Assembly (NCBI RefSeq): GCF_002723955.1
Contig: NZ_BEWN01000004.1
Coordinates: 62,001-126,000, forward strand
Length of the DNA stretch: 64,000 bases
Source of the DNA: Gluconobacter frateurii
GTDB taxonomy: Bacteria > Pseudomonadota > Alphaproteobacteria > Acetobacterales > Acetobacteraceae
Direction of reading: 5' to 3'
Part shown: in pieces, positions 13,416 through 38,022 of the stretch
Layout: each line of letters opens with the position of its first letter
Numbering within the stretch: position 1 is the first letter of the stretch
Position numbers and translations under genes: made by a program
The notes under the pieces: model-generated
Told to the model about the DNA's origin: nothing
The model's database searches: none
What the model saw: the letters and a program-made list of their open reading frames with translations, nothing else

Positions 13416-13512
<97 letters not shown>

Positions 13513-13932
13513 CAAAAATTCCCAGATTTTTCAGAGAGTTATCTGATTTATCAAAATTCATCCCGCCTTGGGCCCCATCTTAAAAAATGCTTCATCGTGC
13601 AGCGTCCGGACGCGATATGCGTCGTCCTGTAAATTTATCGACGCGACCTGCTAACTGAAATCCTGTCATTCCCCGAGGCATCCAGATAATCTGAGGCCGA
13701 GACTGAAGCAGCACTCCGCAAAAATTCGCTCAGAAATTTCTTGAAATCGTCGCCCGTGTTCAGCTAACGTTCTCTCGTTAGTTGACGCCACGTTACAGAA
13801 GACTTCCACAAGGGAAGTGCACGACCTGCCTCTGATCGAAGCAGCAATTTTGCAGAATCTTGAACGCCCAAAAAACCAGCGAAACCGGTGTCATCGTGAG
13901 CCCTGCAAGGGGCATGGTTGGATAAGCGTGTC
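13513..13932. other. Non-coding left end of island
   Basis: No supported gene in about 420 bases between attL and the excisionase-like frame. A minus-strand frame over 13764-14183 is Arg/Ser-rich and antisense to the better-supported plus-strand gene. Confidence 0.4.
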
Positions 13933-15970: not shown

Positions 15971-16318
15971 ATTTTGTTCCTATTATCATTTCTAATTTAC
16001 ATGCTGAAGAGTGGCAGCTTCATATCTCTAGCACGCTATGCCGCGTTCAGATTCCCGTGAAGCTTCTTAAGAATAGTCATCTCGACCTGCCCCTCCCGAG
16101 CTTCATTTCGCTATCGAGCTTCTCGTCGTCGGTCCGTTATGCGGAGTGTACTCGAGGCATACTACGTCTGAGATGTAGGCGACTGCCGCCTGTCTGCTCC
16201 TGCGTCACTGAACGGACAGGCAGTTCAGGGGGGGGGGGGAACCGAGCAGTCTGCTTTCCGAGTGGAAACAGTCAGAAGCAGACGTTTCCGATCGCTTCAA
16301 GTAGTTCACCTCTTCAGT
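15971..16318. other. Non-coding stretch with poly-G run and repeat unit
   Basis: It holds a 12-base G run (16228-16239) and the first copy of a 24-bp repeat (16175-16198). A 103-residue plus-strand frame is Ser/Arg-rich and not supported. Confidence 0.4.
16175..16198 (+). repeat. 24-bp direct repeat, copy 1
   Basis: GTAGGCGACTGCCGCC followed by TGTCTGCT; matches copy 2 at 17865-17888 at 23 of 24 positions. It opens an imperfect hairpin (GCCTGTC 16189-16195 with GACAGGC downstream). Confidence 0.6.
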
Positions 16319-17599
16319 CTATGCTGAAGGTGAGTCGGCGGCCGGGGGCGAGTTCGGATTGGGGATAAGTCTTATTACCATAGGGCCTTGGAAAGGTTCC
16401 CTGCTATCGAAAGCGTATGGTCGCCAACTCCCAACATTTCCGTAATGCTGGAAAACATCGTCAAAGACTGGACTTCCAATAAAATCTGGCTCTTTCACAT
16501 CCCTGTCAGAGAAAGGAAGATGGAAAACGAATAGAAAACAACCTAGCCGAAATTCACCCACGATGTGCGGGAGCGGCGACTTCTCGTCCTTTCGGATGTA
16601 GACCGTCAGTTGTGCAGACGAATTTGGCGGAAGCGGTACGATTGCAGCCTGCACTGGTAGAAGGGCGCGGACTGGAGACGGCACTACTCCGTTACGCACC
16701 CAATCTATAGTCCGAGTGAGGTGAACCAAGTTGTCCTCGGGAATGATCGAAAGCACAAACTTCGCTAATGTGCGGTAACAGCGTTCCGGTATGATGGGCA
16801 AATCACCAGCCAAATCAATCGTGACCACGCCGTCTTCGTTACGAAGCTTCTCTCTCGGCACGGCGACAACCATTTTCTCGCCATCGTTGAGGATCGTGCC
16901 TCCATGACTTTCTATGCGAAGGTTTCCGGCGCGGCCAGTAATTCCAAGGAAAGCACGCTGGATTTTGAGAAATTCAAGAAGGTGCGGCTCCAACTCATTG
17001 CCGAAGAACTCGTTGCAATCGTCACACTCGTCTGCGAGTGTCAAATGAATGTTCCCAAGTGCGCGCGAGATTGCATGCGCTTGTTTCACGAATTTGGCCC
17101 CATCCGCCCTGGAACGTCGACAGAACCGACAGGTGCGCCGCTCAATCTGTGCGTTGCCGACCTGCGTGCGCCGATCAGTACGAGCTACACAGCAATTATA
17201 TTTGCTCAAAAGCCCACCAAACAACTGCTCATGTTTGGTGATATCCTCCTCCTTCACCGTACCATTCGACCACCCGACCAACATCTCGAAGACGCTAATC
17301 TGCGCCGATGTCCACTCCCTCGCCGGAACAACAACAAATCCTTCATCGTCGGCGAGCCCCCCAATTAGCTTAATGAACGCACCAAGCTGCGGGGCGTGTG
17401 CGCGCCGCTCGGCACAAAAGTTAGCGATGGCGGTTTTCAGCACTGGGGTGGCGCGCTGGACCGCCTCGGTGTTTATTTTGCCATCCTGAACCGTCCCAAA
17501 GATACCGAAGAACGCTACGATGTCAGACTCGCCACAAACGTGGAAATCTAAGCGGTGGTGTCGATCCTTCGTGAAGATATCGACCGAAAATAGGGGCAT
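16319..17599 (-). CDS. HNH endonuclease-like protein (HNH_5 type)
   Basis: A 426-residue protein with a central zinc-ribbon/HNH region: C157RFC160, then VKQAH175AISRALGN, then EC192DDC195N196EFFG. This pattern (two CxxC pairs, AHxI..ALGN, CN..FG) is typical of the HNH_5 endonuclease family, often found in restriction or defence loci. The N- and C-terminal regions are unassigned. Its ATG overlaps the TAA of a short upstream frame (TAATG at 17597-17601). It is flanked on both sides by copies of a 24-bp repeat. The substrate is unknown. Confidence 0.75.
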   Translation of the reverse strand: MPLFSVDIFTKDRHHRLDFHVCGESDIVAFFGIFGTVQDGKINTEAVQRATPVLKTAIANFCAERRAHAPQLGAFIKLIGGLADDEGFVVVPAREWTSAQISVFEMLVGWSNGTVKEEDITKHEQLFGGLLSKYNCCVARTDRRTQVGNAQIERRTCRFCRRSRADGAKFVKQAHAISRALGNIHLTLADECDDCNEFFGNELEPHLLEFLKIQRAFLGITGRAGNLRIESHGGTILNDGEKMVVAVPREKLRNEDGVVTIDLAGDLPIIPERCYRTLAKFVLSIIPEDNLVHLTRTIDWVRNGVVPSPVRALLPVQAAIVPLPPNSSAQLTVYIRKDEKSPLPHIVGEFRLGCFLFVFHLPFSDRDVKEPDFIGSPVFDDVFQHYGNVGSWRPYAFDSREPFQGPMVIRLIPNPNSPPAADSPSA

Positions 17600-17820: not shown

Positions 17821-17864
17821 GTCAGCTTTCGGGAAACACGAAACTCGCCTACAAGATCGGTAAA

Positions 17865-17888
17865 GTAGGCGACTGCCGCCGGTCTGCT
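17865..17888 (+). repeat. 24-bp direct repeat, copy 2
   Basis: Second copy of the unit at 16175-16198 (one mismatch). It forms the left half of a stronger hairpin: CCGCCGGTCTGCT (17876-17888) with AGCAGACCGGCGG (17901-17913), 13 bp perfect, 12-base loop. Confidence 0.6.
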
Positions 17889-18101
17889 TCAAATTCATTG
17901 AGCAGACCGGCGGTTAAGGGGAGGAGTGGAAGGGCACGAAAACGAACGCTCAAGATATTGAGGCCCGTATCTGCAGGATCAATCCATCATCTCACGTTTC
18001 CACCCAACTCTTTCCTGCGTCTTATAATCGGCAGATTAGATACCATCCAGACCGTATAGATCTTTTATGAGTATCGCTTAATTCCCAACGCTGTCGTCAC
18101 G

Positions 18102-19049
18102 TCATTCCATATCACTTGGACCATCTGCCTTGAGGTGTTCTCTTCGATGACAGCGAGGGTAAAGCACTACAAGGTCGTTAACGGACGTATCGCGCACACC
18201 TTTAGCAAGAATAATGCGATGGTGTACTTCGAACATCTTCCTTCGATCCTCAATTTTTATCCATTGATCATTTGCTGCGGTATAACCGCACTCTTCATCT
18301 TCGCATGTATATTCCCCAAATTTTTTAATATTTGAATCAAGTGCTGCATCTACTGCTGCTTTCGATCTAGCTTTTTCATATCGCGCTCTGCGTGGAATTA
18401 AATAACCCTCACGATATTTTTTTTCTTCCTTGATTACATTCGATGGAATTGACGAAGGACGATCCAGTATCACTTCACGTAGTCGACAACTGCCAATTTT
18501 GGAGGAAAGTCCAGAAGCTAGCTTATCAAGAGGGATTACATTCGTTCCGTCACTCTGATTGAATGGACGTGGCTCGCAGCTTAGAATATCCGCAAACGAT
18601 ACCGGGGGGTGACTCAACCAAACTCGGAGAAATGGCACTCCCATAGGCCACCGAAATTTACCATCATCCGAATTAAAATCTTCTCGCTGTAAATCTTCTT
18701 TATGTAAGATTTCTTCAGCAGGCAGATTCCCTGGATAGGCTAGAGCCACACCGTAGAGCGCGCGTGGAACTCCCCCATATTTAGCAGCTCGTTTCAAGCT
18801 ACCCATAGCAAGTAAAAAGGGCTGTCGTGGATTCCCGCCCGTAGCTTTTACCTCTTTGGCCCGATTACATAGATAAAATTGCATACTATTTCCGGGAAGT
18901 ACAGCAGCGCACCAGCGTAGACGCCCGTCTGCACCAAACTCACCTTCGCCGTATCCCATCACAGCACCAACAATGGATCCGAAAACAGCCTCCAATTCGG
19001 CCACATTTACTTCAGGGCCAGTAAACATCGGGGTCGTATTAATACTCAT
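18102..19049 (-). CDS. HNH endonuclease-like protein with a Cys-to-Tyr change in the zinc site
   Basis: A 315-residue protein whose C-terminus has the HNH/McrA layout: C249EDEEC254GY, FEVHH277R, N291DLVVLYPRC300HRREH. Usual members read LCPxCHR; here the first Cys of that pair is Tyr297 (TAC, one G-to-A step from TGC), so the zinc knuckle may be impaired. The N-terminal 240 residues are unassigned and may be a specificity domain. The gene stands alone with the same orientation as the other HNH gene. Confidence 0.7.
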   Translation of the reverse strand: MSINTTPMFTGPEVNVAELEAVFGSIVGAVMGYGEGEFGADGRLRWCAAVLPGNSMQFYLCNRAKEVKATGGNPRQPFLLAMGSLKRAAKYGGVPRALYGVALAYPGNLPAEEILHKEDLQREDFNSDDGKFRWPMGVPFLRVWLSHPPVSFADILSCEPRPFNQSDGTNVIPLDKLASGLSSKIGSCRLREVILDRPSSIPSNVIKEEKKYREGYLIPRRARYEKARSKAAVDAALDSNIKKFGEYTCEDEECGYTAANDQWIKIEDRRKMFEVHHRIILAKGVRDTSVNDLVVLYPRCHRREHLKADGPSDME

Positions 19050-19689: not shown

Positions 19690-20075
19690 TCGGTCATATA
19701 GGCGCGTTGAATGGTTTCCCGAAAGCCGACATTGCTCTGCAAACCACCATAAAGCGAGTTTTGGGACTTAGCTGCCGTTCGTAGGCACAGTGGCGAAAGT
19801 CACCTTCTGGCGGGAGCGGACATTTCTGTGGCTTCATATGCCCAATTGGCGTACCCAGCGCGAAGCTGTCGCCTCTGCTTCCGGGTAATGAGCGCGGTAA
19901 GGTGTGTCTGGCAAAGACCGACCCTCGGCAGGCATTCTCTCCCAGCGCCACTTCAATTGCGGCATTCTTGGACGGCTCCGGGTGCGCAGCCAATCGCAGC
20001 AGCCCTCTGCGTCGCTCAAGCGACGTGGATACCCGGCTGCTGGAGCCATTTGTCCACAGACTCTTGTGGATAGCG
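19690..20075. other. Region without a supported gene
   Basis: Overlapping frames on both strands give low-complexity products. The minus-strand reading near 19795-19835 (PEGDFRHCAYERQL) resembles a peptide often over-predicted in sphingomonad-type repeats, suggesting transferred non-coding DNA. Confidence 0.35.
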
Positions 20076-21542
20076 TCAGACCAATCTCGCTGGAACGCCG
20101 CTCAGCCAGCTCTGGTGCCAGACGCCAGCACGCCACTGCAGCTTGGCAGCACCGATAGCACCGGCTTCGATCTCGACAATGGCCATCGCGCGATCCACAT
20201 CGTCAACATGACCATCCGCTGTCTCCTTGGGCCCGACGGCGAGCCCCATGCCCGTCTTCCCGCCCGCAAACGCCATGTTCGTGACGGCGAGGCAGCGCGC
20301 TTGCGACAGATTGCTCAGCCCGAATGCCCGCGCGTGCGCCCAGCGACCAGCGTCGATCGAACAATCGAAGATCGGCGTGAATATCCAGTCGGGCTGGAAG
20401 ACGGTCACGACAGCTGGTGCGAAGACCGGCATCTCGCAGTCTTGGCAGATGAGGATCACGCAGCGGCCAAGGCCGTCGAGATCAGCAACAACCAGCGTGT
20501 CCCCGGCCGCATTGTCTTCAAGCGTGAGCCCTTTTGCATCAGGCTTGTCGATGCCATACTTGGCTGCAGTCTTGTGATCGACGCCGGCCGGCCAGAGCTT
20601 GCGCTGTCGCCACAGCTCCGTCCCCCGTGCATTGAGGACGCGCGTCTCATTCCAAGGCTGATCCTCGCCACTCAAGGCATTGCTGTTGCAACTGCCCGCG
20701 ACGATGAGCTTGGGCACAGGCTTGGAATTCCCGGCGAGCGCGTCGGCCAGCCAATCATGGTGCGCCTCGTTCATGGCCAGCTCGGGCATGACTGCGATAT
20801 CGATCCCGCCAAGTTCGGTCAGGGCCGCGAGCGCCGCGGCACCGGCGTCGAAATGAGGAGCTGGGCCATAACGCGCGAAGATACGGTCAGCATGGGGACG
20901 CGGCTCAGCGATAAGGTCGCCCGAAGTGATAGCCAACGGCACGAACCCAACCGTCTCGGATCCTGGCACGGAACTGGCGGGGACACCGGTGAACGGATCG
21001 AGCGGGATCGCCTTCATCTCGACCCTGATCGCACGGCCATCATGAGTCAGCGTGCGGGGCGCCACGGTGAGCGCCGCGAAATAATCAGAGAAGAGGTCTG
21101 CATTTGACGCGTGCGGGTTGCGGGACGCGCGCAGCAGCGGCCCGCGGGCTATCAGCTGCCAGTCAGCGGTTTGAAGATAAGCGCCGCTTTTGCGCCGCAT
21201 AAAACGAGCATCGCGCAACCAGTCCGGCAGCGGTGGTGCCGCGGCAGTCAGGATGGCACGCGGATGGATGCGATAAAAGGCGTGATCGATTGCCTGCAGC
21301 ACCGCCAATATGCGGCCACGCCAGACTTCCACGCTGAAGATTTTGCCTTCTACAAGATCCTTGAGCAGGTCGTGAGCCTCTGCTCCGGAGTGCCGCGCCA
21401 GAAAATCTGCGGCGAGATCTGCGAAGCCGACGTCTGGTCTTGGCGCGATTGCACGCTGCGAGGCGGTCCACGATGCCGCCAGCGAATGATAATCGACGAA
21501 CAGGGTGGCCGGGCTGCGCTCCGGCGGGGCGGCCGCGTTCAT
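20076..21542 (-). CDS. Nitrilase/CN-hydrolase-domain protein of the KGGVGR operon
   Basis: A 488-residue protein. The C-terminal part (about 195-480) has a carbon-nitrogen hydrolase layout with the Glu-Lys-Cys triad: E254 in VMPELAMNE, K315 in WRQRKLWPAG, C366 in LICQDCEMP. Nitrilase-fold enzymes cleave or transfer on C-N bonds (amides, nitriles, N-acyl groups). The N-terminal 190 residues are helical and unassigned. It is the last gene of a three-gene operon and overlaps the ATPase stop by ATGA (21539-21542). The fusion to an unknown N-terminal domain and the ATPase partner suggest an effector rather than a metabolic amidase (inference). Confidence 0.75.
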   Translation of the reverse strand: MNAAAPPERSPATLFVDYHSLAASWTASQRAIAPRPDVGFADLAADFLARHSGAEAHDLLKDLVEGKIFSVEVWRGRILAVLQAIDHAFYRIHPRAILTAAAPPLPDWLRDARFMRRKSGAYLQTADWQLIARGPLLRASRNPHASNADLFSDYFAALTVAPRTLTHDGRAIRVEMKAIPLDPFTGVPASSVPGSETVGFVPLAITSGDLIAEPRPHADRIFARYGPAPHFDAGAAALAALTELGGIDIAVMPELAMNEAHHDWLADALAGNSKPVPKLIVAGSCNSNALSGEDQPWNETRVLNARGTELWRQRKLWPAGVDHKTAAKYGIDKPDAKGLTLEDNAAGDTLVVADLDGLGRCVILICQDCEMPVFAPAVVTVFQPDWIFTPIFDCSIDAGRWAHARAFGLSNLSQARCLAVTNMAFAGGKTGMGLAVGPKETADGHVDDVDRAMAIVEIEAGAIGAAKLQWRAGVWHQSWLSGVPARLV

Positions 21543-23800
21543 TCCTTAGGCCCAGGCCGCTTTTTGAGGGCGAGGCGCTCTTGAAGCAGCGCCAGCTGCG
21601 CCAGTCCCTCCCTCGGCGCCGCCGGATTCCTGGCCAGCCGGCTGCGAAGCTCGTCGAGATGGGGCAAATCGACTTTTGCTCTCCAAGGCAGCACGATCCG
21701 CGCCTCCACGAACCTGCTGAGCAGCTCGACCAAGATCTGGACCAAGAACGGATAGTTCTCGTCGCGGGTACCCGGCTTCTCGTCGAGCAGCTCGGCGAGG
21801 GTATTGATGAAGTCAATCGCCCTCGCCAGGTTACGCGGACTCCGGCTGTAATATTGAAGGAACTGCTGCTGCCGACGCTCGGTCGAAGAAAGTGCCTTCT
21901 GCACAAACTCGATCGCCAGTTGCGGGTCTTTTGCTCGCAGTACCGCCTGACCGAGATCAATGAAGCGCACGACGAAAGCATTGGAGTTCCCTGTCCAGTC
22001 CAGTGCCTTTACCGCGTTGCGTGCCGCGTCTTCCGCACTGATGGCGCTGGCTGGAAGACGCGCCAGCCTGACATGCAGGTCGAAACGCAGGCGTGTCAGT
22101 TCGGCGCGGCTGCGCGCCTCATCCGATGAGACGGTCTTCAGCCCATTTTCATAGAATCGGCGTGCCGCATCCGGTTTGCCGCTGGCGACCTGGACATCGC
22201 CTCGCAGCAGCGCAAGGTCCATCTCCGAGATCAGCAGTTCGATGCGCGCGTCCCCTGAGATGCGGGGCGCAAGCTCGCCGCTCAGCTTGCCAAGTTCCAC
22301 GATGAGCTGTTTGGCGGCGTCGGCATTGTCCAACATAAGGTGCAGCCGTGCCGCGCGCCGGCGGTTCGACAGAAGCCTCAGTTTCGCATCATCGCCCTGC
22401 AGGACCACCAGGATCGCTGCCGCTTCGTCGAGCAGCAGCAGTTCCTCGTCCTCCTCGATCGCGAGGCCCGCCACGTCTAAATAGAATCCGATATAGTCCA
22501 CCAGCAGCGCCGACCATTGTGCCGAATTAGCGGCGGCAAGCTCGCGGAGCAGATTGAGAGCCAGCGACATCATAGTCGCGGCATCCGTATCCTCGCTGTT
22601 GCGCGCGAGATGGATGACCGTCGCGATCAGTGTGCGGATATATTCGCCACTGGTCTCGCCATCGACCGGATCCTCAAGCAAGCTTTCGATCAGTTGGGTG
22701 ACCTCCTCCACCGCGCGCTCTGGATCCCTCGAACGCAGGCCGAGGATGTATTCCGACGTCGCCTGCCGCGGCTGCAGCCGTCGGCGGACCTGCGCCACCC
22801 AGTCCTCCCTGAGCTCGGGCATCTCGAAGCTCGCGTTGAGGAGCTTGTTGGCGAGGTTGAGATAATCGAGTGTGAGCGGATCGCTCGACGGCCGCTCCGA
22901 TGTCACGAAGGCGATGGCCTCGTAGAAGGGCACGTTGGGCGCCTGCCGCACGGCGAGCCATTTTTGGTCGAACTCGATCTCGTCGGCTGCGAATCCGCCC
23001 TTGCGGCGCAGTTCCTTGCGAGCCCGGGCCCGGGCGTCGGATTCCTCGGACGTGTTCTCACGCGCGACGCGCATGGGAACGGCATGGAGCTGAACGCCCG
23101 CCGACCGCTTGGCACGGATGGCGCCACCCACCTGCGCGATGCCGTCAATATTCTGACGGTTGTAGATGTAGCAGAGCGCCACTTGGTCGGGGATCTGCAT
23201 CGTGCAGATGCCCGCAACGTCAGCAAAGCCGGTTCGGCTGTCCAAGAGGATGTAATCGTAATTTGTCCTCGCCCAGTCGCGCAGCGCGGCAAGAAGGACA
23301 CCACCCGCCTCGTCCGCGAAAAAGCTCGACCAGTCGAAGCGGGACAGAGCGTCCTCGTACGAGACCGGTTCTGGAGTCGCGATCGTCGCGGCCCCCGCGC
23401 CGATATGGTGAAGCGCGCCCTCTCTGGCAAGACCGTCGACATAGAGTGGCCGGACCATCTCGTCGAACGGCGCGCCCTCTCGGTAGCTCTCGACCAGCTT
23501 GGCGACGTCGTCCGTGGACCGGGCCTCCCGCAGGGCGCTCGACCATCCCCATACGAGGTCGAGCACGCCAGGTGCCGAACGGACCGCTCGGGCTTGGATC
23601 GGCTCCTGCATGCCCCGGAAGTAATAATGAAGGCCAGGGGCCTCAAGGTCCCAGTCCATGACCAGGACACGCTTGCCGTTCAGCGAAGCAAGAAACGCCA
23701 CGTTGGCGAGCGCCATGGTCCTGCCCACGCCGCCCTTGAACGAGTAGAAAGTGACGATCTTCCCCGGACGTGATCCGGCAGCGGATTCAGGTGTCGGCAA
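21539..23800 (-). CDS. KGGVGR-variant ParA/MinD-like ATPase with helical-repeat tail
   Basis: A 753-residue protein. The N-terminal 330 residues form a SIMIBI-class ATPase: deviant Walker A K22GGVGR27T (the usual final Lys is Arg), VLVMDWDLEAPG, and DYILLDSRTGFADVAG. Positions 340-753 are alpha-helical with repeated ~35-residue Leu/Ala-rich segments resembling TPR units. The start is TTG at 23800, inside the upstream regulator gene (14-base overlap); no ATG precedes the ATPase motif. KGGVGR ATPases are a known variant family associated with predicted conflict systems. The tail probably senses or binds a partner, here perhaps the nitrilase protein (inference). Confidence 0.85.
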   Translation of the reverse strand: MPTPESAAGSRPGKIVTFYSFKGGVGRTMALANVAFLASLNGKRVLVMDWDLEAPGLHYYFRGMQEPIQARAVRSAPGVLDLVWGWSSALREARSTDDVAKLVESYREGAPFDEMVRPLYVDGLAREGALHHIGAGAATIATPEPVSYEDALSRFDWSSFFADEAGGVLLAALRDWARTNYDYILLDSRTGFADVAGICTMQIPDQVALCYIYNRQNIDGIAQVGGAIRAKRSAGVQLHAVPMRVARENTSEESDARARARKELRRKGGFAADEIEFDQKWLAVRQAPNVPFYEAIAFVTSERPSSDPLTLDYLNLANKLLNASFEMPELREDWVAQVRRRLQPRQATSEYILGLRSRDPERAVEEVTQLIESLLEDPVDGETSGEYIRTLIATVIHLARNSEDTDAATMMSLALNLLRELAAANSAQWSALLVDYIGFYLDVAGLAIEEDEELLLLDEAAAILVVLQGDDAKLRLLSNRRRAARLHLMLDNADAAKQLIVELGKLSGELAPRISGDARIELLISEMDLALLRGDVQVASGKPDAARRFYENGLKTVSSDEARSRAELTRLRFDLHVRLARLPASAISAEDAARNAVKALDWTGNSNAFVVRFIDLGQAVLRAKDPQLAIEFVQKALSSTERRQQQFLQYYSRSPRNLARAIDFINTLAELLDEKPGTRDENYPFLVQILVELLSRFVEARIVLPWRAKVDLPHLDELRSRLARNPAAPREGLAQLALLQERLALKKRPGPKE

Positions 23801-24500
23801 GCGCGGCGTCCTTTTCCGTCACCACAGTCTCCAGCTCGTGCGCGAAGGTCGGCGCTACCCGCATGAATTCCGGCATCTCGCGCTTCTCACTGCGCGCCCA
23901 AGCCCGGACCGGCGGCGAAAGCCGCGTGCGCATCATCCGGCCGCCAGCCTGTTCGGCGAGATCGCGCGTTGCGGGCGTCAAGAAGTTAATAAGCCTCGTA
24001 CCTTCGCGGCGATAGTCCACCGCCCCCATCTCTCTCAGCTTGCGCAGATTGCGGCTTACCGTTTCCGGCCGATGGCCAATCTCCTCGGCCAGCTCGACCC
24101 CCGTCAGGTCGTCAGCCCGAAGTGCCCGAACGTAGGGCGCCAGACTCTCGCTCGCGAGCAACTGCTCGAAGCCAGCATCGGCGCGCTTAGCGGCGATATC
24201 CGCGGCGAACTGGTGGGCGAAACTGATTTGGCCAAGGTCGAAGGCATGGCCGCTGGCAGTGCTCCGGCTGGCGGCATCCCGCCGCGCAGCGCGTCGAGCC
24301 TCCGGTTCCGCGCCTGCAGACGCCTGCACCAGCAGGTCCTCGAGCTGCGCCGCCAACGCGCGTATCTGCGCCGGATCCTTGTCCCCCGCCGCCTCGCGCA
24401 GACGTTCGGCAAGCTCCGTGTAAACGGCATAAGGCAGGGTGAGCGGCCCTTGATCCGCCACCAAGGAATCGAGATGGGTCCAGCGCTTCACGTTTGTCAT
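23787..24500 (-). CDS. Winged-helix transcriptional regulator of the KGGVGR operon
   Basis: A protein of about 237 residues. A central winged helix is visible near residues 125-185: SLAPYVRALRADDLTGVELA, then EEIGHRPETVSRNLRKL and REMGAVDYRREGTRLINFL, similar to ArsR/MarR-type DNA-binding domains. The N-terminal 110 residues are helical and Ala/Glu-rich, the C-terminus is basic. Start choice is uncertain: ATG 24500 lies just after a putative -10, ATG 24506 and TTG 24509 are alternatives. It overlaps the ATPase gene by 14 bases and is the first gene of the operon, so autoregulation is likely. Confidence 0.75.
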   Translation of the reverse strand: MTNVKRWTHLDSLVADQGPLTLPYAVYTELAERLREAAGDKDPAQIRALAAQLEDLLVQASAGAEPEARRAARRDAASRSTASGHAFDLGQISFAHQFAADIAAKRADAGFEQLLASESLAPYVRALRADDLTGVELAEEIGHRPETVSRNLRKLREMGAVDYRREGTRLINFLTPATRDLAEQAGGRMMRTRLSPPVRAWARSEKREMPEFMRVAPTFAHELETVVTEKDAALADT

Positions 24501-24507
24501 GGCCATC

Positions 24508-24553
24508 AATTTAATCAGCCAACACTAAGTGTCAACTAACTATCAATGACACT
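24508..24553 (-). promoter_or_regulatory. Putative promoter and operator of the KGGVGR operon
   Basis: On the minus strand TTGACA (24530-24535) and TAAATT (24508-24513) are 16 bases apart. The -35 overlaps an inverted repeat AGTGTCA (24528-24534) and TGACACT (24547-24553), spacing 12. This is a plausible autoregulatory site for the winged-helix protein. The predicted start of transcription would be close to ATG 24500, implying a leaderless message. Confidence 0.42.
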
Positions 24554-24642
24554 TTCTTGACATGCCGATGGCGGACGCCATCTTTCGTATCCAATGCCCA
24601 GCCCGCCGTACCGTGCTCGCCGACAAGATTGCGAGGTACACT

Positions 24643-24896
24643 ATGCGGGACCGAAGCGCTGCTTCGAGACCGTCCGACGCAAGCAATGTCTGCGTGAACT
24701 GCTTTGTCGACGATGATCTCAAAAAGGTCATCTTGCGTCATCGGCGAAAGGGCTGCTGCGCCTTCTACGGTTCACGCGGTGTGGCGGTCCTGCCGTTCCA
24801 CGGCATGGTGTGGATTATCTCGAGCGCATCATCCATGCGAACTACAGTCGCGCGGTAGACGAGCTGCCTTGGGAATGCAGATATCGGGGCGGCTGA
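24643..24896 (+). pseudogene. Relic of a HEPN/RES N-terminal domain (toxin fragment)
   Basis: From ATG 24643 the frame reads VCVNCFVDDDLKKVIL, GCCAFYGSRGVAVLPFHGM, and after a 2-base slip near 24808-24814 continues VDYLERIIHANYSRAVDELP to a stop at 24896. The order CxxCF.D..LK..I, C.FxG, V.V.P, then a helix ending DELP.E...GG matches the N-terminal domain that precedes RES toxin domains. The RES domain itself is absent, the second zinc Cys is Tyr, and there is a frameshift, so it is a relic. Confidence 0.5.
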
Positions 24897-25180
24897 ACTG
24901 CGCCCTATCCGTATTCCGGACGGACGGTGGAGGATGGCATAACGGCCGACCTCGTCTGGTTTAATGGAACGCCACGCTCTTTCCATCGGGCATCGAAACT
25001 CGCAACGATTACCAGTGAAGCTGGGTGATCGCTTCCACCGGTATGTCAGACGAAGGCGTTAATATCGTTCGGCACGTAGTTTAGTCGAGTAAGAACGTCT
25101 GTTATTTTACGTTCAAGCACGGATAGCGGACGTTCTGCTTCTCCCCCCTTAGCTGACAAACTTCTCCTCTCCAGCGCCAG

Positions 25181-29182: not shown

Positions 29183-29650
29183 ATGAGTTCTGATGCAATT
29201 TTTGGGCTACCGTCTGCCCAGACAGACCACAGCATCATTTTTGCCACCGGTTCAACCGGAGCTTTGGGCTCAGACGCTTTGGTTGCTGCTACAAATGGGC
29301 AGAGCAGCCCAAGCGGTACCGGCAACTATTTGGGAACAACTTTTCTCGCGAAGGCGGTCGATCAGCTCTATGCTGCGAACTTGACGCCTATTCATGAGAA
29401 ATTGGCGGCAGTCTCAACGAGTTCTTCCATAGCCAGTCCCAGTGTCGAGAACGACCCGAATTCCGCTTCTTCATCAAAGATATTTTTCGTCACTAGCATA
29501 CCTACCGAAACGAGTAATACGGCAGCTCCCTCAACAGATCTTTCTACGAGTCAAAATAACGGAGCGGTTGCTATCCAAGCAAGATCGTTAGTCGATACGT
29601 CTTCTTTTTCCTGGCCGACATTTGCTCCAGCAGTTGCTGCAGTCGTTTGA
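29183..29650 (+). CDS. N-terminal part of the polymorphic toxin (separate frame)
   Basis: A 155-residue frame, Ser/Thr/Ala-rich, without a Sec signal or membrane segment. It ends PTFAPAVAAVV at TGA 29648-29650. Removing one T in GTTTGA (29645-29647) joins it to the following 806-residue frame as ...AAVVDTDAAAVKYLF. It is therefore probably the N-terminal domain of the toxin, carrying whatever export signal it uses. Either the gene is frameshifted, the frame is recoded, or there is a sequence error. Confidence 0.5.
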   Translation: MSSDAIFGLPSAQTDHSIIFATGSTGALGSDALVAATNGQSSPSGTGNYLGTTFLAKAVDQLYAANLTPIHEKLAAVSTSSSIASPSVENDPNSASSSKIFFVTSIPTETSNTAAPSTDLSTSQNNGAVAIQARSLVDTSSFSWPTFAPAVAAVV

Positions 29651-32042
29651 TACTGATGCTGCCGCCGTTAAATACCTTTTTAATATGATCGAAGAGCGAG
29701 ATCCTACAGCCGACGAGCAGAGCGTCTACAGTGCAAAAATAGATGCACTCCCCGTGACGGTTACGGTTGTTGGCAACATCGTGCATTACAATCGGGAAAT
29801 CACGCCAGTCGCCTCGGAAATTGCCCATCTACAAATCACAACAGACAAGCTTCAGAGCCAATTCCAGACGGCTATGGGACAAACTGTTTCCGATGATATC
29901 ATTTCAGCGGGAGAGGATGATCTCGCTCAAGGCGTTCCTTTTAGTACGCTGCGCGAGGCTATCTTTAATTCTTCAGCAGAAACGAACGCGATCAGTACCG
30001 TCTATCAGAACATCTACGGTCAAGCTGCAACCACTTCAGACCAGCAATATGCTCAGCTCCAACTGTATCAGGGCGGCGTGACCTTCGATCAGTTCCAAAT
30101 CAACGAGGCCCATTCCGCCCGGGAAACAGAAGCTCTCAAGCAGATCATTCGTGATGTTCAGGATCGTGAACCTGCGGATTCAGACAGCGCCTGGATCCAG
30201 GGTACAGAAGATTCGATCGGAAATGGACAGATCAGTTACGCTGACGCTCGTAACGCACTCATCGACTTTGAAGGAGAAAACGGAGTTTTCGACGCCTATG
30301 AGCAGAAGCTCTATGGCGTCAACGCAAGTGATGCCGATCGACAGTGGTTGCGGGATTCCCTGCATTCCGGCTGGAGTTTGGCGGCTCTGCGAAATGTTGA
30401 TGCCCATTCGGATCGAGAAACAGCAGCTCTTCAGCAGCTTATTCGCGACATTCAGGATCGCGAGCCAGTAGATGCAGACAAGGCGTGGATTCAAGGTACC
30501 GAAGATGCACTGGGGAGTAGCCAGACAAGCTTCACAGCTACACGTGATGGACTGATCGACCTCGATGGTGAAAATGCAGTCTTCGATGCCTATGATCAGG
30601 CGCTTTATGGATCGAATGCAGATCAGGCGACCCGCGACTGGCTGCGCGCCTCTCTGCATGCTGGCTGGACGATGGCCGGTATCCGTGAGGTTGATGCTCA
30701 TTCAGCTCTGGAGAAGCAGACGATTGGTCAGGTCATCCGGGACGTTCAGGGGCGCGAACCCGACGACACTCGTGACGCAGCATTTTTCTCTGAGACCATG
30801 GATGATTTGGGGGCTGGCAGGGAAACTCTGGCCCAGGTCTATACAGGCCTTGCCTCGTGGGACGCGGATTTTCTCAAACCGGCCATGACGTTCATCACGT
30901 CACAGAATGTCGGGGCTGATGATGCCTGGATTGTCTCGTCCATCCAGCAGATTGGTGCTCGGGAAACGACTTATTGGGGCGCTGTGCAAGGTTTGGCACA
31001 GTCTGATGCAGCCTATGCCCAGATCCAGAACGTCTATGCGGACTGGGGGCAGCTTCCCCCAAACACGACAGAACTTCAGACAGCAGGCACGGCGCTTTAT
31101 AATCTCTCCTATGCCTGGATCACCACAGTGCAGACTTTGAGTGCCGATCAACTCGCTACGCAGGCAGCAGCCTATAATCCATCCGTATCTGTTTCTTTCC
31201 AGGATATGGTCAGCAACCTTGCATCTTCCACGACACAGGCCGTTGGCCTGGAAGCCAATTTGCTGGTTAATACCTATCTTGAGACCTCAGCAGATCCTGA
31301 TGCTGCCAAAGCTGATCTTGCGGCAGGTGGTGAGAATGCGCTTGCCGCAGCCTTGGATGAGGGGTCTGTCCTGACAGAGCTCAAGAAGATTGAAAACGAA
31401 AACACTAATGACTGCGATCCTGTCGTTTTTCGAAATAACAAGACCATCGTGGAAAATATCAAGAACAGTGACGTTATGGCTGCCAACCAGACGTTTGGCG
31501 ACGTCAACGGGAGCACCTGGGATCAGAGCTACAAAGATCTGGGGATTCAATGGAAGACAAAGACGAGCGGAACAACCACTAACCAACAAGGTTTACCTTA
31601 CGAGGCCTGGGTGCAGAACCGGCTCAATCCATCACAGGATGCGAACGGCGTGATCTGGCTTCAGCCTCTGAAGGCGAACTGGAAGGTCTTCGATCACTGG
31701 GACGAAAAGAATGCCATTGCTACAAGCGACAAGACGATTAACCTTGCAGCTCCGAGCTACAAGAGCAGTCCTTACGCTGTCGCTGCCCGGGTCGAGGCCA
31801 GTGTTGACAAGATGCTTGGCTATATCACTGACGGAACCAAAGATGAAACCGTGAGGTTCAATGCAGGGGATATTGGTTCTTACGTGCTGAACCTGGCTGT
31901 TCCCTATATTGCGGATCCTGAGGCGATGGATCCGCAGACCGCTGCGGAATGGAAGGCCCTTTGCCGCGCCTATCATGATGCCCTAGCTGAAATGTCAGCC
32001 GAAAGCAAAATCTTCACGTTCAATATTACTACGGTAAGCTGA
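29622..32042 (+). CDS. Polymorphic toxin: DUF4214-like repeats plus C-terminal nuclease-like domain
   Basis: An 806-codon frame (TTG start at 29622 as read; probably the continuation of 29183-29650). Residues 160-450 hold three ~98-residue repeats (ALKQIIRDVQDREPADSDSA; LYGVNASDADRQWLRDSLHS; GW..A.R..DAHS.RE), resembling DUF4214 units found in secreted proteins. The last 150 residues (GLPYEAWVQNRL from 657) resemble PD-(D/E)xK nuclease toxins of CdiA C-termini, with candidate residues E661, D691/D694 and K704 (FDHWD...SDKT). The gene stop overlaps the next gene (TGATG), as in toxin-immunity pairs. The nuclease call is by pattern only. Confidence 0.65.
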   Translation: MLQQLLQSFDTDAAAVKYLFNMIEERDPTADEQSVYSAKIDALPVTVTVVGNIVHYNREITPVASEIAHLQITTDKLQSQFQTAMGQTVSDDIISAGEDDLAQGVPFSTLREAIFNSSAETNAISTVYQNIYGQAATTSDQQYAQLQLYQGGVTFDQFQINEAHSARETEALKQIIRDVQDREPADSDSAWIQGTEDSIGNGQISYADARNALIDFEGENGVFDAYEQKLYGVNASDADRQWLRDSLHSGWSLAALRNVDAHSDRETAALQQLIRDIQDREPVDADKAWIQGTEDALGSSQTSFTATRDGLIDLDGENAVFDAYDQALYGSNADQATRDWLRASLHAGWTMAGIREVDAHSALEKQTIGQVIRDVQGREPDDTRDAAFFSETMDDLGAGRETLAQVYTGLASWDADFLKPAMTFITSQNVGADDAWIVSSIQQIGARETTYWGAVQGLAQSDAAYAQIQNVYADWGQLPPNTTELQTAGTALYNLSYAWITTVQTLSADQLATQAAAYNPSVSVSFQDMVSNLASSTTQAVGLEANLLVNTYLETSADPDAAKADLAAGGENALAAALDEGSVLTELKKIENENTNDCDPVVFRNNKTIVENIKNSDVMAANQTFGDVNGSTWDQSYKDLGIQWKTKTSGTTTNQQGLPYEAWVQNRLNPSQDANGVIWLQPLKANWKVFDHWDEKNAIATSDKTINLAAPSYKSSPYAVAARVEASVDKMLGYITDGTKDETVRFNAGDIGSYVLNLAVPYIADPEAMDPQTAAEWKALCRAYHDALAEMSAESKIFTFNITTVS

Positions 32043-32632
32043 TGAATAAGCCACAACCCCAAGAACGCTCTCGTCCGCCGCGTACAAAGTACAAATCGTG
32101 TTTTGTCGGTCGAACTGATAAATTCATTGCTATTGTCTCCGACGAAATCTGGGCCGGGATGTATTTCTCCCGCCATGGGCTGGCGATTCATGCGATCCGG
32201 GAGGTCACGCCTGAATGGATTGGCGCTCACGTGCGGCAGGCGCTTGAAACAAGCGAGTACTGTGCGCCTCCTCTGGGTGTCTCGATTGATCACGGTCAGC
32301 TCGTAACCATGAAGGGCGCCTCAACCGAGAGACGACTGGCGTTCTGGGACGAGATTGCGAGCACATATGGCTACAAGGACAGGGAAGCGGCCTGGAAGAA
32401 GCGCGATCAGCTTTTTATTTCGTGGTTTTACGAGACCGAGCCTGACATCATCATTAGAGCCTCGAAAAGTTCACGAAGCGGAAGTCACAGTGCCTGGCCA
32501 CGCGGCATGAACGAAGGGCGGGTGTTTCATGTTCCCTTTGCTGCATCCGATGAGGAAATTGGTGAGACCGTGTTGAAAGCACTGGCAAAATGCGAAGGAC
32601 CAGGGAAATCGACACAGCCTGTCTTTCCTTAA
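32042..32632 (+). CDS. Immunity protein, CdiI/DUF1436-like
   Basis: A 196-residue soluble protein starting within the toxin stop (TGATG). The C-terminus VFHVPFAASDEEIGETVLKA resembles the DUF1436 (CdiI) ending, and the N-terminal part has a beta-rich VGRTDKFIAIVSD stretch. Position directly after a toxin nuclease domain is the strongest evidence. It would bind and neutralise the cognate nuclease. A second, damaged paralogue follows at 32790. Confidence 0.65.
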   Translation: MNKPQPQERSRPPRTKYKSCFVGRTDKFIAIVSDEIWAGMYFSRHGLAIHAIREVTPEWIGAHVRQALETSEYCAPPLGVSIDHGQLVTMKGASTERRLAFWDEIASTYGYKDREAAWKKRDQLFISWFYETEPDIIIRASKSSRSGSHSAWPRGMNEGRVFHVPFAASDEEIGETVLKALAKCEGPGKSTQPVFP

Positions 32633-34030: not shown

Positions 34031-35323
34031 TCAGGCGTCTGAATCCTCGATGTCAGAGTCTTTCCAGGTGAACAGCGGCGCACTGTCAGGATTGGGACGC
34101 TGAGGCTTTGCGACCGCCTCACTCGATTGACCGGCACAGAAGCGTTCCCAGGCAAACATCATCTCTGAACGCCTGTTGAAGAGATCCCCGCGGCGATAGG
34201 CGGCCTCAACCTTGTCACCGATGGCATGGGCCAAAGCCATTTCGGCGACCTCGCGTGGAAAGTCGGTTTCCTCGGCCGCCCAGTCCCGGAAGCTGGAGCG
34301 CAAACCATGGATCGTCACATCCTTCGTGCCTGCGGCCTGATGGAGGGCCTTCGAGACTGCGACATCGCTCAACGGTGATCCGACCCGGCCACCGGGAAAC
34401 ACGAAACTGTCCTCACCGAGACTGGATCTCAGGGTGTGGACTTTATACAGCAATGCTATCGCTCCGTTCGTCAGGGGCACACGATGCTCCCGCCCGGCCT
34501 TCATCCGCTCGGCCGGGATGGTCCAGATCTTTTTCCTTAGATCGATCTCCGACCACAGGGCCTTGCGGACCTCGCCAGACCGGGTTGCGGTCAGGCAGAC
34601 GAACCGTGCAGCAAGAGCTCCCACGCCATGCTCGGCGCCGAGCCGGCTATAAACCGGCGGGAGGTCGCGATAGGGCAAGGCGGCATGATGCAACACCTTG
34701 GTGACGGCCGTGGGCTTGGGAAGGATGTTGGCCAGATGCCCCCGCCAGCGGGCCGGGTTCTCACCCTCGCGCCAGTGATGGCTCTGCGCATAGTCTAGAA
34801 TACGCTCCATCCGGCCACGCAGCCGTGTTGCGGTCTCGGTTGTGCTCTCCCAGATCGGTCGCAGGACAGCGAGCACGTCCTCTGTCTGCACGCTGCCAAT
34901 CGGTTTCTGACCGAGGACGGGATAAACATGACGGTCCAGAGAGCTGCGCCACATGGGCGCCGAGCGCGGATCTTTCCAGCCCGGCGCCTGTTCGGTGATG
35001 TACTGCTCGGCAACCTGCGCGAAGGTGCGCTCCTGAACGTCGAGGCCCTTCTGGCGGCCCTTTTCTTCCAGGGGGTCGGTCCCCTCCAGAAGCAGGCGCC
35101 GGTTCTCGGCTGCCCGGAGTCGGGCATCAGCCAGAGAAATATCCCGGGCGGGACCGAGTCCCATCTCCCGTCTTTTGCCGGTCTTTGGGCTTTTATAGCG
35201 GAAGGTCCAGGCCCGGGTGTCGCCCCGGACGGTGATCCATAAATTTCCGCCATCGCCGTGAACCCCGTCTTTGAGGGAGGCGACCTTGCGGGCATTCATC
35301 TGGTTCGGCGGAAGCTTGCTCAT
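34031..35323 (-). CDS. P4-type tyrosine integrase
   Basis: A 430-residue site-specific recombinase. An N-terminal DUF4102-type arm-binding domain (residues 1-95) is followed by a core-binding domain and a catalytic domain with R248 (TATRSGEVR), H339xxR342 (HGLRSSFRDW), H366 (ALAHAIG) and Tyr376 (AAYRRGDLF). All catalytic residues are present. It starts about 150 bases from attR and reads into the island. It is the enzyme expected to recombine the tRNA-Ser att sites. Confidence 0.95.
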   Translation of the reverse strand: MSKLPPNQMNARKVASLKDGVHGDGGNLWITVRGDTRAWTFRYKSPKTGKRREMGLGPARDISLADARLRAAENRRLLLEGTDPLEEKGRQKGLDVQERTFAQVAEQYITEQAPGWKDPRSAPMWRSSLDRHVYPVLGQKPIGSVQTEDVLAVLRPIWESTTETATRLRGRMERILDYAQSHHWREGENPARWRGHLANILPKPTAVTKVLHHAALPYRDLPPVYSRLGAEHGVGALAARFVCLTATRSGEVRKALWSEIDLRKKIWTIPAERMKAGREHRVPLTNGAIALLYKVHTLRSSLGEDSFVFPGGRVGSPLSDVAVSKALHQAAGTKDVTIHGLRSSFRDWAAEETDFPREVAEMALAHAIGDKVEAAYRRGDLFNRRSEMMFAWERFCAGQSSEAVAKPQRPNPDSAPLFTWKDSDIEDSDA

Positions 35324-35772
35324 GGCTTTTCAGTCCCATCTTCCGTCCCACCTTACGGGATGGGTTTCAATGCGTCTATCTGCTTCTTCAGGATGGCATG
35401 GATTTCTGTAAAGCCATGAAAAACAAGGGTTATTGCGCTGATCTGCTTTTCCGTGATACCCTACATCGGCGGACACCCTCTCCGCCAGATAAATAAAAAA
35501 ATCTTTATTAGTCCGTGGACGGTTAGGGTAGAACGATACACTCGATCTCTGGAGCCACTTTAGTGCTTACAGGCTTATAAAAGTCTCAGGCCTTGCACGT
35601 ATTGTTCAAGAATGTGTCGGGCACGTTTCGTGCGACTGAAAAGTATCTCGTGCAAATATACAGAAAAGAACTGAGGCTGATATTTTCATAATATGCTGTG
35701 AAGCGGCAGAACGGGTGCAATCTTTAATCAATGTTTGCCAGAACGTATCGTATCTGATGATTTAGGATACTC
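35324..35772. other. Integrase promoter, attR and flanking chromosome
   Basis: It holds the integrase upstream region, attR at 35474-35494, and about 280 bases of AT-rich chromosome downstream of FUSC in which nothing else was recognised. Confidence 0.5.
35474..35494 (+). repeat. attR: duplicated tRNA-Ser 3' end
   Basis: Exact 21-bp copy of 13492-13512. The bases before it do not continue the tRNA, so only the 3' tip is duplicated and the functional tRNA is on the left side. Confidence 0.85.
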
Positions 35773-38022
35773 TTACTGTGATACGCCTTGGAGCTTCAGA
35801 TGACTACGCTCACCCTTGAAGGGGCGACTGGCATCAAGGAAGTCGGCGTTAGTCTGCATGGTGTAGGCAATTACGACGAGATAGGTGATGGCGCGCGTCA
35901 TCTCCAGCCGTGTCACGAGATCTGTTTCATGCTCATCCAGCGCACGTAAACGTCTGACAGCAGCATTGGCAACACGTGCCGCTTTGTCATGCCGTCGTGT
36001 GGATTGTTCAACATAGTGAAGCACCAACTGGATAGGGCGGCGCGCGCTGTCTGGCAGATATTCCCGATCCAGCAATGTGCGAAGGCGAATGATATTCAAT
36101 CCGAGCGTCAGAGTTGCCAATGTTCCGAGAATACAGGCTTCGATAAGTGGGGCAGGGGTTGGGCCCGCGTGACGGATAAGGCGTGCGAAGCGGTCGGTAT
36201 TACGCCCGATCCACACACTGATCTGGGGCGCGTAGTTTGGATCCGCCAGATGGCGCAACTCGGTAAGCATGATGCGGCGCAGACGGAGTCTTTCGTCTGA
36301 ACTGCTGAACGGTAGGACTGTGCGGAACACCAAAACACTGATGCCAACAGCCATCACGACGGCCATATTGCTGTTGTAGAATGCGACTTCATTCATGACG
36401 TGATGATTTTCCAGCCCCAGCATCGCAGGGAGCAGCAGACCATAGGCCGCTGCTCCTCCCGCGGTAGAGGGATTTCCTTTGGCCAGGCCCCCCAGAAACA
36501 TTGCCGGACCAAGGAAAAGAGTCAGTGTCTCAAAGGTTGTAACCTTTGGCATCAGAACAAAAACCAGTACCCATGCTACAACATAAGCGGCGAGTGCACC
36601 TTTCAGGAATTCAGTTGTTCCGAGAACAGGGTTTTCCTTGGTGGCAAATAGCCCGCAAACCAGCGTTGTGATGGCAATAAAGCCAAGCCCACTTGGCCAG
36701 GCAGTTATTTCATAAATCAGAGCCGTAACCAAAACGGCGCAGGCGCCGCGTAAGCCGTTATGAATGGCTTCGCGCGTATCCCGATGGGTCTGGCGTTGAA
36801 AGTGAAAATGGTCGCCAGGAATGGTGTGTGTGCTGGCCTCATATTCTTTGATGGCGAGTTCGAGATCTCCAAGCAGTTCGCCCAGAGACATGAACAGGAC
36901 GCGCTCATCGAGATGGGCCTCCGTGTCCTGTTCATTCAGTCGCAGATCAAAAGGATCAGCCCCCGGAATGGGTTCGTTGCTGTTCTGAAGATCCGTCGCG
37001 CGATGCGGTGCGGCATACAGGCGGCAGACGTCCCGAAGATGTTGCAGCTCTGCCAGTAGGTCCGGAACGGTCTCCGTGTTGGATATTCGCTTCGGGAAAT
37101 CCCTGAGGAAGGAGAGAATTTCGTCGGCGGCCTGTGTGAAGGCGGGATGCTCATGATTGAGGAGCTGGAGGCGCATGGCCATGCCAAACCCGCGTGATAG
37201 CAAGGCGGACACAGAGGCCAGAGCGGCACGGGCGTGGTCGCCTTCGTGGCCGTGCGGGCCCATTTCCACTTCAGCAAATTCGATCTGATCGTTGATGCTG
37301 AGGATGGTGCCAAACTGTCGACGTGCTGCATTCAGGGCGCCGCGCTCTTCGCCAAGAATGCTGCATAATGTCCCGGTTACGAGAACAAGCGCAGATTCCA
37401 GCTTCTGGCGCAGTTGCGCCCGCGCCTGTCGCTCCTGGGTCGTTGCAAAGATCAGCCCCATGAACGCTTCGCACAGAACTCCCAGGATAATGTACGTTGT
37501 TCGGGAAACGGCCACCGTGAAAATATTGTCAGGGTCAGACGCTGCGTCCATGCAAATGATCGAACAGGTATATCCTGCAAGAACAAGGGCATAGGAGCGA
37601 AAGTTACTAACAAATGTTGCTAGTCCGCTGCACATGCCAATCCAGACGGCAATCATGGGAAAGAACAGCCAGGGAGCCTGTGGAGCCGCAGCCATCAGGG
37701 CTATCGAGGCGACTGCGCCGGTAATGGTCCCAATGATACGCCATTTGGCTTTTGACTGGCTTTCGCCGCGCGTAGCCTGCGCTACGGCCCAAACGGTCAT
37801 CGCAGCCCAGGCAGGGCTGTCGAGTTCCATCCAGAACGCAATGCCGATCGCGAGAGATGCCGCAAAGGTATTTCTGAGCGCGAATGTGAGTGTCGCTGCC
37901 GAAGGGGCGTAGATCCACGACAGAGGCAGCTTGACCCTGGGCCGCAGAGCTGAGGACGCGCCTGCACCTGAAGGAGAGCTGTTCGGAGTCGGACGTCCTG
38001 CTGACGTAGTGCTGCCACTCAT
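35773..38022 (-). CDS. FUSC family inner-membrane transporter
   Basis: A 749-residue fusaric-acid-resistance/YccS-like protein. It has two clusters of hydrophobic helices (about residues 45-200 and 400-530) separated by a long cytoplasmic part, and a C-terminal helical domain. The motif TVWAVAQATRGESQSKAKWR lies in the first cluster. Relatives export aromatic acids as part of efflux complexes with a membrane-fusion protein, but none is adjacent. It follows the UdgX gene by 31 bases, so may share its transcript. Confidence 0.85.
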   Translation of the reverse strand: MSGSTTSAGRPTPNSSPSGAGASSALRPRVKLPLSWIYAPSAATLTFALRNTFAASLAIGIAFWMELDSPAWAAMTVWAVAQATRGESQSKAKWRIIGTITGAVASIALMAAAPQAPWLFFPMIAVWIGMCSGLATFVSNFRSYALVLAGYTCSIICMDAASDPDNIFTVAVSRTTYIILGVLCEAFMGLIFATTQERQARAQLRQKLESALVLVTGTLCSILGEERGALNAARRQFGTILSINDQIEFAEVEMGPHGHEGDHARAALASVSALLSRGFGMAMRLQLLNHEHPAFTQAADEILSFLRDFPKRISNTETVPDLLAELQHLRDVCRLYAAPHRATDLQNSNEPIPGADPFDLRLNEQDTEAHLDERVLFMSLGELLGDLELAIKEYEASTHTIPGDHFHFQRQTHRDTREAIHNGLRGACAVLVTALIYEITAWPSGLGFIAITTLVCGLFATKENPVLGTTEFLKGALAAYVVAWVLVFVLMPKVTTFETLTLFLGPAMFLGGLAKGNPSTAGGAAAYGLLLPAMLGLENHHVMNEVAFYNSNMAVVMAVGISVLVFRTVLPFSSSDERLRLRRIMLTELRHLADPNYAPQISVWIGRNTDRFARLIRHAGPTPAPLIEACILGTLATLTLGLNIIRLRTLLDREYLPDSARRPIQLVLHYVEQSTRRHDKAARVANAAVRRLRALDEHETDLVTRLEMTRAITYLVVIAYTMQTNADFLDASRPFKGERSHLKLQGVSQ

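Follow-up and report, generated by a model that had tools for sequence, protein, structure and literature searches.

Organization of the three-gene operon

We analyzed a 64,000-nucleotide stretch of a Gluconobacter frateurii contig (NZ_BEWN01000004.1, positions 62,001 to 126,000; hereafter, the window) that carries an operon encoding a winged-helix protein, an ATPase with a variant P-loop, and a nitrilase-fold protein (Table 1). Judged from their sequences, the three genes probably constitute an undescribed immune system, and we regard it as rather likely that the operon is a mobile conflict system, probably an anti-phage one of the abortive-infection type. Open reading frame (ORF) analysis found all three minus-strand frames open and overlapping head to tail, the winged-helix and ATPase genes by 14 bases and the ATPase and nitrilase genes by ATGA, in agreement with a preliminary description of this DNA. 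The putative promoter and inverted repeat named in that description were also located; the former is a predicted sigma-70-like promoter (TTGACA-16-TAAATT), and the palindrome ACACTtAGTGT, a possible operator, overlaps its first hexamer and the spacer. Two sigma-70-like sites scoring 10/12 were observed within positions 19800-24900, compared with 0.8 in shuffled sequence.

Since several homologues begin at the position aligned with the ATG at 24500, this codon, rather than an upstream TTG or ATG, is likely the first codon of the winged-helix gene, and a transcript from the predicted promoter would then be leaderless. The encoded protein contains a winged helix-turn-helix (wHTH) at about residues 113-185 of the 240-residue ORF, and its N-terminal part appears to be helical. 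A Csa3/CARF identity of this regulator was rejected, as the PADLOC matches fall on the HTH part of the CARF/Csa3 profiles.

The three genes recur together and co-evolve

A search of the GTDB collection with the single window nitrilase sequence returned nothing, and loci were therefore collected with a profile of the nitrilase alignment, which found 12. The order winged helix–ATPase–nitrilase was present in 11 of them (with the nitrilase in two ORFs at L018), the twelfth (L013) being a 4.9-kb contig with broken frames. Among the hosts are distantly related bacteria: Agrobacterium, Iodobacter, Methylovulum, Variovorax, Polaromonas, Cupriavidus, and Pseudomonas. All three viral contigs (L020, L021, and L022, the last a near-copy of L021) carry the set as well. 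An integrase lies upstream at L020 and L021 (Pfam) and a similar-looking ORF at L022, and these contigs are probable prophages; lysis-type genes were seen by eye downstream at L022. Among plasmids, 4 of the 12 records with a nitrilase match were opened, and two of the four regions, both rhizobial (L004 and L005), contain the set; the L004 operon is split by IS21, and the L005 HTH gene is annotated and alignable yet falls under the BLAST limit. Co-occurrence in unrelated hosts, as anticipated for a system, was thus observed.

Contig sizes point in the same direction. For 20 of 46 non-self nitrilase homologues, the longest contig equals in size, to the base, that of one of the 119 other ATPases listed, or for 20 of 36 when only contigs of at least 4,500 bases are counted; such pairs are probably one contig. 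P0140, an ATPase of this set on a contig of 3721 bases, was left out of the comparison; no nitrilase contig has that size. The nitrilase gene itself is sparsely distributed: in the family it was found in one of 299 genomes, the window's own, and in evenly drawn samples that include the window genome it was found in 3 of 385 genomes of the class and 6 of 398 of the phylum.

Pairwise distances between ATPases and between nitrilases were correlated across 14 loci (r = 0.84, or 0.74 without L005), and the correlations among all three proteins ranged from 0.73 to 0.84 (0.59 to 0.74 without L005), with at most 1 in 5000 permutations reaching values as high. The two-ORF nitrilase locus L018, the short and broken L013, the IS21-split L004, and the near-copy L022 were left out of this test. 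The three-gene order, conserved as it is, is not due to chance.

A KGGVGR ATPase with a divergent helical-repeat tail

The window ATPase matched the NCBIfam model NF047398 (AAA_KGGVGR) with 132.1 bits over residues 14-224, above the curated cut-off of 90, and is hence a member of this family. Proteins exceeding the cut-off were present in all 12 genomes checked, including the window's (one each, three in G1058), and in none of 14 control genomes. The Arg that the preliminary description had noticed in place of the last Walker A Lys, R27 of the KGGVGR motif, is kept in 47 of the 47 sequences that have a letter at that position in a 50-row alignment; the ATPases of the two rhizobial-plasmid loci read KGGSGR. 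Identity among 13 loci was 27% in the tail versus 56% in the P-loop domain, or 25% versus 53% once L005 was included.

Family members also occur in other contexts. Of 16 plasmid records matched by the ATPase, 10 were opened, including L036, which carries no annotation. A KGGVGR domain is fused to a TIR domain on a Sinorhizobium plasmid (L030:5995-8199), a KGGTGR domain is fused to EAD10 and a STAND NTPase on a Pseudanabaena plasmid, with a gene for a caspase nearby (L038:5998-8472), and a KGGxGR relative adjoins BREX genes at L039. At L031-L035, L037, and L039, all on plasmids, shorter or otherwise different KGGVGR ATPases follow a small-protein gene, annotated as MqsA-like at L032-L034, and some of these pairs may represent a PDC-M28-like two-gene form.

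The third protein is predicted to have a nitrilase fold

The third protein had no match in Pfam (at E 1), NCBIfam, or PADLOC and stays below the gathering score of PF00795, so that its assignment rests on a structure model and on remote CN_hydrolase relatives. When the model, built from 23 of 47 homologue sequences (the window's included), was used in a fold search, it returned the nitrilase fold, and according to this model the protein is of the nitrilase (CN hydrolase) fold. Two relatives exceed the PF00795 cut-off of 23.2 (L006, 28.8 bits; L045, 23.7 bits), and those of L003, L005, L026, and L044 fall below it. Repeating the homologue search with a profile again yielded 47 proteins, all of which retain E254, K315, E342, and C366, as do 11 of 11 sequences when remote relatives are aligned; the E254/K315/C366 triad had been numbered correctly in the preliminary description. 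The order and spacing of the four residues fit those of amidase tetrads. Although the window protein has no Pfam match, we rejected the idea that the nitrilase claim is a misreading, given the fold search and the relatives. A search of PDB chains with the nitrilase sequence profile found no nitrilase, and the CARF-nitrilase model of PADLOC (PDLC01989) matched the distant relative L026 weakly (E 0.0014).

The N-terminal domain (residues 1-188) contains conserved HPR and RGP motifs. No fold match covered these residues in a search made within the whole-protein model.

Remote relatives have a second architecture with other tails

Six remote nitrilase loci were opened, and three of them (L043, L044, and L045, in genomes G581, G588, and G568 of the same phylum) encode a nitrilase, a protein of ~240 residues, and a KGGVGR ATPase, in this order. 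The middle protein gave a weak MarR match in one case. The ATPase tails consist of WD40 and pentapeptide repeats in G581 and of TPR repeats in G568, and the G588 sequence ends early. Where a switch stays constant but its repeat tails vary and can be exchanged, the tail would be expected to act as a sensor, and the helical-repeat tail of the window ATPase would then be the sensor.

Defence genes flank some of the operons

We scanned 120 of 138 flank ORFs from 14 loci with the PADLOC models (E 1e-8) and, as a control, 119 of 149 ORFs near ParA/MinD-like genes in 11 of the same genomes; the ORFs were picked mechanically, longest first, and some may be on the wrong strand. Known defence genes do lie near the operon at some loci, as the preliminary description had suggested for a true system. 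L019 is flanked by KwaA and KwaB of Kiwa (E 5.5e-61 and 5.8e-55) and a DpdF-like helicase, L009 by an E1-E2-JAB protein, L005 by SIR2 and a P-loop NTPase, and L016 by PDC-S19, a model matched in none of the 14 control genomes. MzaA, PDC-S52, SspH, and mad8 were also matched among the flanks, without placement to a locus, and mad8 was matched in the control too. In total, 82 PADLOC families were matched in the 120 flank proteins versus 5 in the 119 control proteins, a comparison in which only the flank set includes a plasmid and two viral contigs and in which five flank proteins give 49 of the 82 families (one helicase 23, KwaA/KwaB 15, the E1-E2-JAB protein 6, and a P-loop NTPase 5). A dGTPase gene beside L015 was set aside as probably a housekeeping gene, read by eye. 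At L011 and L018, a calcineurin-like phosphoesterase ORF was seen by eye beside a short HAD-like ORF, possibly shared cargo.

This inflated count is one of several points that weigh against an immune function. The neighbour families listed by name number 25 of the 82, and named defence genes were placed at four of the 14 scanned loci. Some of the PADLOC models also hit housekeeping genes. PDC-S01, matched at L009, also matches 5 of the 14 control genomes. RT_UG29 was rejected as a defence neighbour because its model is hit in 11 of 12 records searched as well as in 10 of 14 control genomes, and the match is therefore probably a primase look-alike. Neither the nitrilase nor the ATPase had a match in 50,697 phage records. 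No ATPase was found near the nitrilase relative within the stretch fetched at the other three remote loci (L041, L042, and L046; genomes G116, G123, and G613, with the G123 nitrilase aligned over a short piece only), and none was seen near it in two Azospirillum plasmids. The preliminary description had counted close metabolic relatives of the nitrilase gene outside such operons against a system, and this is borne out in part: relatives outside such operons occur in Azospirillum and in other genomes, but they are remote (25-28% identity), and those in Azospirillum sit among metabolic genes. At two scanned loci, a nitrilase relative lies next to a small wHTH gene (L006:7884-9904, Azospirillum; L041:4589-6870, G116). 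Because of such relatives without an ATPase, a toxin-antitoxin-like or metabolic ancestry is conceivable.

The operon is carried by a genomic island at a tRNA-Ser gene

As the preliminary description had proposed, the operon lies on a tRNA-gene genomic island, bounded by tRNA-Ser (CGA) and attachment repeats and equipped with an integrase. The tRNA-Ser site was opened in eight genomes of the same genus. In G024 (L074) and G003 (L075), sequence matching the window from 35828 onward resumes ~80 bases after the tRNA, which shows that these sites are empty. The spacing between the tRNA and the right-flank sequence is ~1.4 kb in G009, ~0.5 kb in G022, and ~7 kb in G005. In G020, the first 120 bases past the tRNA match the window and are separated by ~1.2 kb from the sequence matching window position 35773, and for this reason the exact island ends are not certain. 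What G002 has in common with the window is limited to pieces at 25 kb and near the left end. In G013 (L070), the same tRNA-Ser is ~17 kb away from a 93% identical integrase-end sequence, and a few other pieces are shared; the operon is absent there and the contents mostly differ from those of the window island. Since the integrase end is shared and the other contents differ, the site appears to be a hotspot at which cargo is exchanged.

The preliminary description contrasted the intact operon with broken surroundings. The three frames are indeed open, but the statement that most surrounding genes are broken was overstated: among the neighbours checked, open frames are seen for two HNH ORFs, the ORFs of IS66, and the integrase. 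The island IS66 has three plasmid matches, all in Gluconobacter, the best with 91% identity over 71%; this would suit an acetic-acid bacterium as the host, although mobile DNA says little about host identity. The HNH-nuclease ORFs (16319-17599 and 18102-19049) are each followed just downstream by a copy of an 85-nucleotide repeat (16157-16241 and 17847-17931; 73% similar), and the second has a weak PADLOC match to type IV restriction. The island also carries a contact-dependent inhibition (CDI)-type set (29183-32632), an 806-residue ORF with an EC869-like CDI toxin domain at its end and an adjoining CdiI immunity protein.

Table 1. Features of the operon and its island (positions in the window)
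Feature	Position	Strand	Remarks
Winged-helix gene	23787..24500 (ORF 23787-24509)	-	237 aa from ATG 24500, 240 aa from TTG 24509
ATPase gene, KGGVGR-variant P-loop	21539..23800	-	753 aa, TTG start; ORF and NF047398 match
MinD/ParA/Soj-fold domain	22829..23770	-	Residues 11-324; K22, R27, D49, D187
All-helical repeat tail	21566..22813	-	Residues 330-745; fast-evolving, proposed sensor
Nitrilase-fold protein gene	20076..21542	-	488 aa; ORF, alignment, structure model
N-terminal domain of nitrilase protein	20979..21542	-	Residues 1-188; helices then strands
Nitrilase (CN hydrolase) domain	20118..20978	-	Residues 189-475; E254, K315, E342, C366
Sigma-70-like promoter, predicted	24508..24535	-	TTGACA-16-TAAATT; 10/12 consensus matches
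Palindrome, possible operator	24522..24532	-	ACACTtAGTGT; read from window sequence
tRNA-Ser (CGA), integration site of island	13416..13505	+	
Left attachment repeat	13492..13521	+	3' end of tRNA-Ser
Right attachment repeat	35474..35503	+	93% identical to left
Tyrosine integrase of island	34031..35323	-	

Discussion

In the mechanism that we propose, the winged-helix protein would act as the repressor of the operon and might in addition bind to the complex. The ParA/MinD-fold ATPase would act as a switch that binds nucleotide and changes state, probably without fast cycling because the second lysine of its P-loop is replaced by arginine. Its divergent helical-repeat tail might sense a product of the invader, a role suggested by its rapid change and by the swapping of tails in relatives. 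On sensing, the ATPase may oligomerize or release the nitrilase-fold protein, with which it would engage via the latter's N-terminal domain; the E-K-E-C active site could then either hydrolyze an amide or amine that is an essential metabolite or produce a toxic metabolite, which would bring the infected cell to a halt.

Some of the evidence can be read differently. The ATPase has a ParA/MinD fold and the operon is found on plasmids, prophage-like contigs, and islands, which would suit an addiction or element-stabilizing module in which the ParA-like ATPase and the DNA-binding protein maintain the island or prophage, with the nitrilase as toxin and the winged helix as antitoxin; the pairs of nitrilase and wHTH genes lacking a nearby ATPase (L006 and L041) fit this as well. 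We consider such a module unlikely, since a tail far more variable than the ATPase domain is a better fit to a sensor than to a partition motor, and some loci are flanked by defence genes. The benefit could also accrue to a prophage, if the operon were a cassette for superinfection exclusion or lysogeny that later spread to islands; this reading differs from the proposed immune system mainly in which element benefits. Although the three viral contigs, with their integrases or similar-looking ORF and the lysis-type genes at L022, are compatible with such a cassette, the phage records lack both proteins and most loci found are chromosomal or plasmid-borne, and we hold this to be the least probable explanation.

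A metabolic or detoxification operon, in which a regulator and an accessory ATPase accompany a hydrolase of amides or nitriles, also seems very improbable. Solved structures of the matched fold are mostly metabolic amidases and nitrilases, and the remote Azospirillum relatives have metabolic neighbours. However, of the 15 loci that the profile retrieved from genomes and viral contigs, 14 carry all three genes as an operon (the fifteenth is the short contig), no transporter or pathway gene common to the loci was seen by eye among the ORFs listed, the gene is confined to a single genome of the family, and the ATPase co-evolves with the enzyme.

The conflict-system reading could be taken further. 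We tentatively put forward a widespread, undescribed immune class in which a free-standing nitrilase effector would be gated by a ParA-like KGGVGR latch whose sensor tail (helical repeat, TPR, or WD40/pentapeptide) can be exchanged. If it holds, then nitrilases, together with DRT1 and the CARF-nitrilase, would be a general, swappable type of immune effector, and KGGVGR proteins, which are also fused to TIR and EAD-STAND domains, would resemble STAND NTPases in serving as a general switch of immunity. Such a system would also give the KGGVGR family a role, and, being free of a reverse transcriptase and having a nitrilase protein of <500 residues, it would make the question of the substrate directly accessible to biochemistry.

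In open-access PMC text, we found no prior description of a KGGVGR ATPase or of PDC-M28, and none that joins a carbon-nitrogen hydrolase with antiphage activity or a MinD-like protein with anti-phage defense. The NF047398 entry, to which the window ATPase belongs, provides a domain name and is silent on tail, partners, and function. The ATPase also matches PDC-M28B around the P-loop (70 bits; best stretch, residues 13-60). The two models of PDC-M28B span 438 and 327 positions, and that of the PDC-M28A partner spans 138; this A component was not found in the window genome and was present in one of the eight genomes or records searched, and the operon is therefore not PDC-M28. Kaur et al. 2020 (eLife 9:e52696), in the part of the text available, describe a deviant MinD/ParA-like domain, predicted to be inactive, that is joined to conflict-system domains; those systems, however, are of the vWA-MoxR and AP-ATPase (STAND) kinds, and Pfam found no such domains in the window trio. 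As the three proteins have neither a MoxR AAA+ nor a vWA domain, the operon is not a vWA-MoxR system, and the word nitrilase does not occur in the available part of that text. The CARF-nitrilase resembles the window protein in being a nitrilase predicted to serve as an immune effector, but the window HTH protein lacks a full CARF match. The functional precedent is DRT1, whose nitrilase, according to the available part of PMC13275509, is an abortive-infection effector that becomes active on tetramer formation, is inhibited in filaments, and has a substrate that is not known. The two would share a nitrilase domain acting as an abortive effector activated by oligomerization, and DRT1 likewise has a helical-repeat domain. 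In the accessible portions of PMC13275509 and PMC9122126, the nitrilase is tied to a reverse transcriptase; Pfam matched none in the three window proteins, and the operon is therefore not DRT1. Whereas in DRT1 the nitrilase forms one protein with a reverse transcriptase, which synthesizes protein-primed DNA (PMC13275509, same part), the proposed switch in the window is a separate KGGVGR ATPase.

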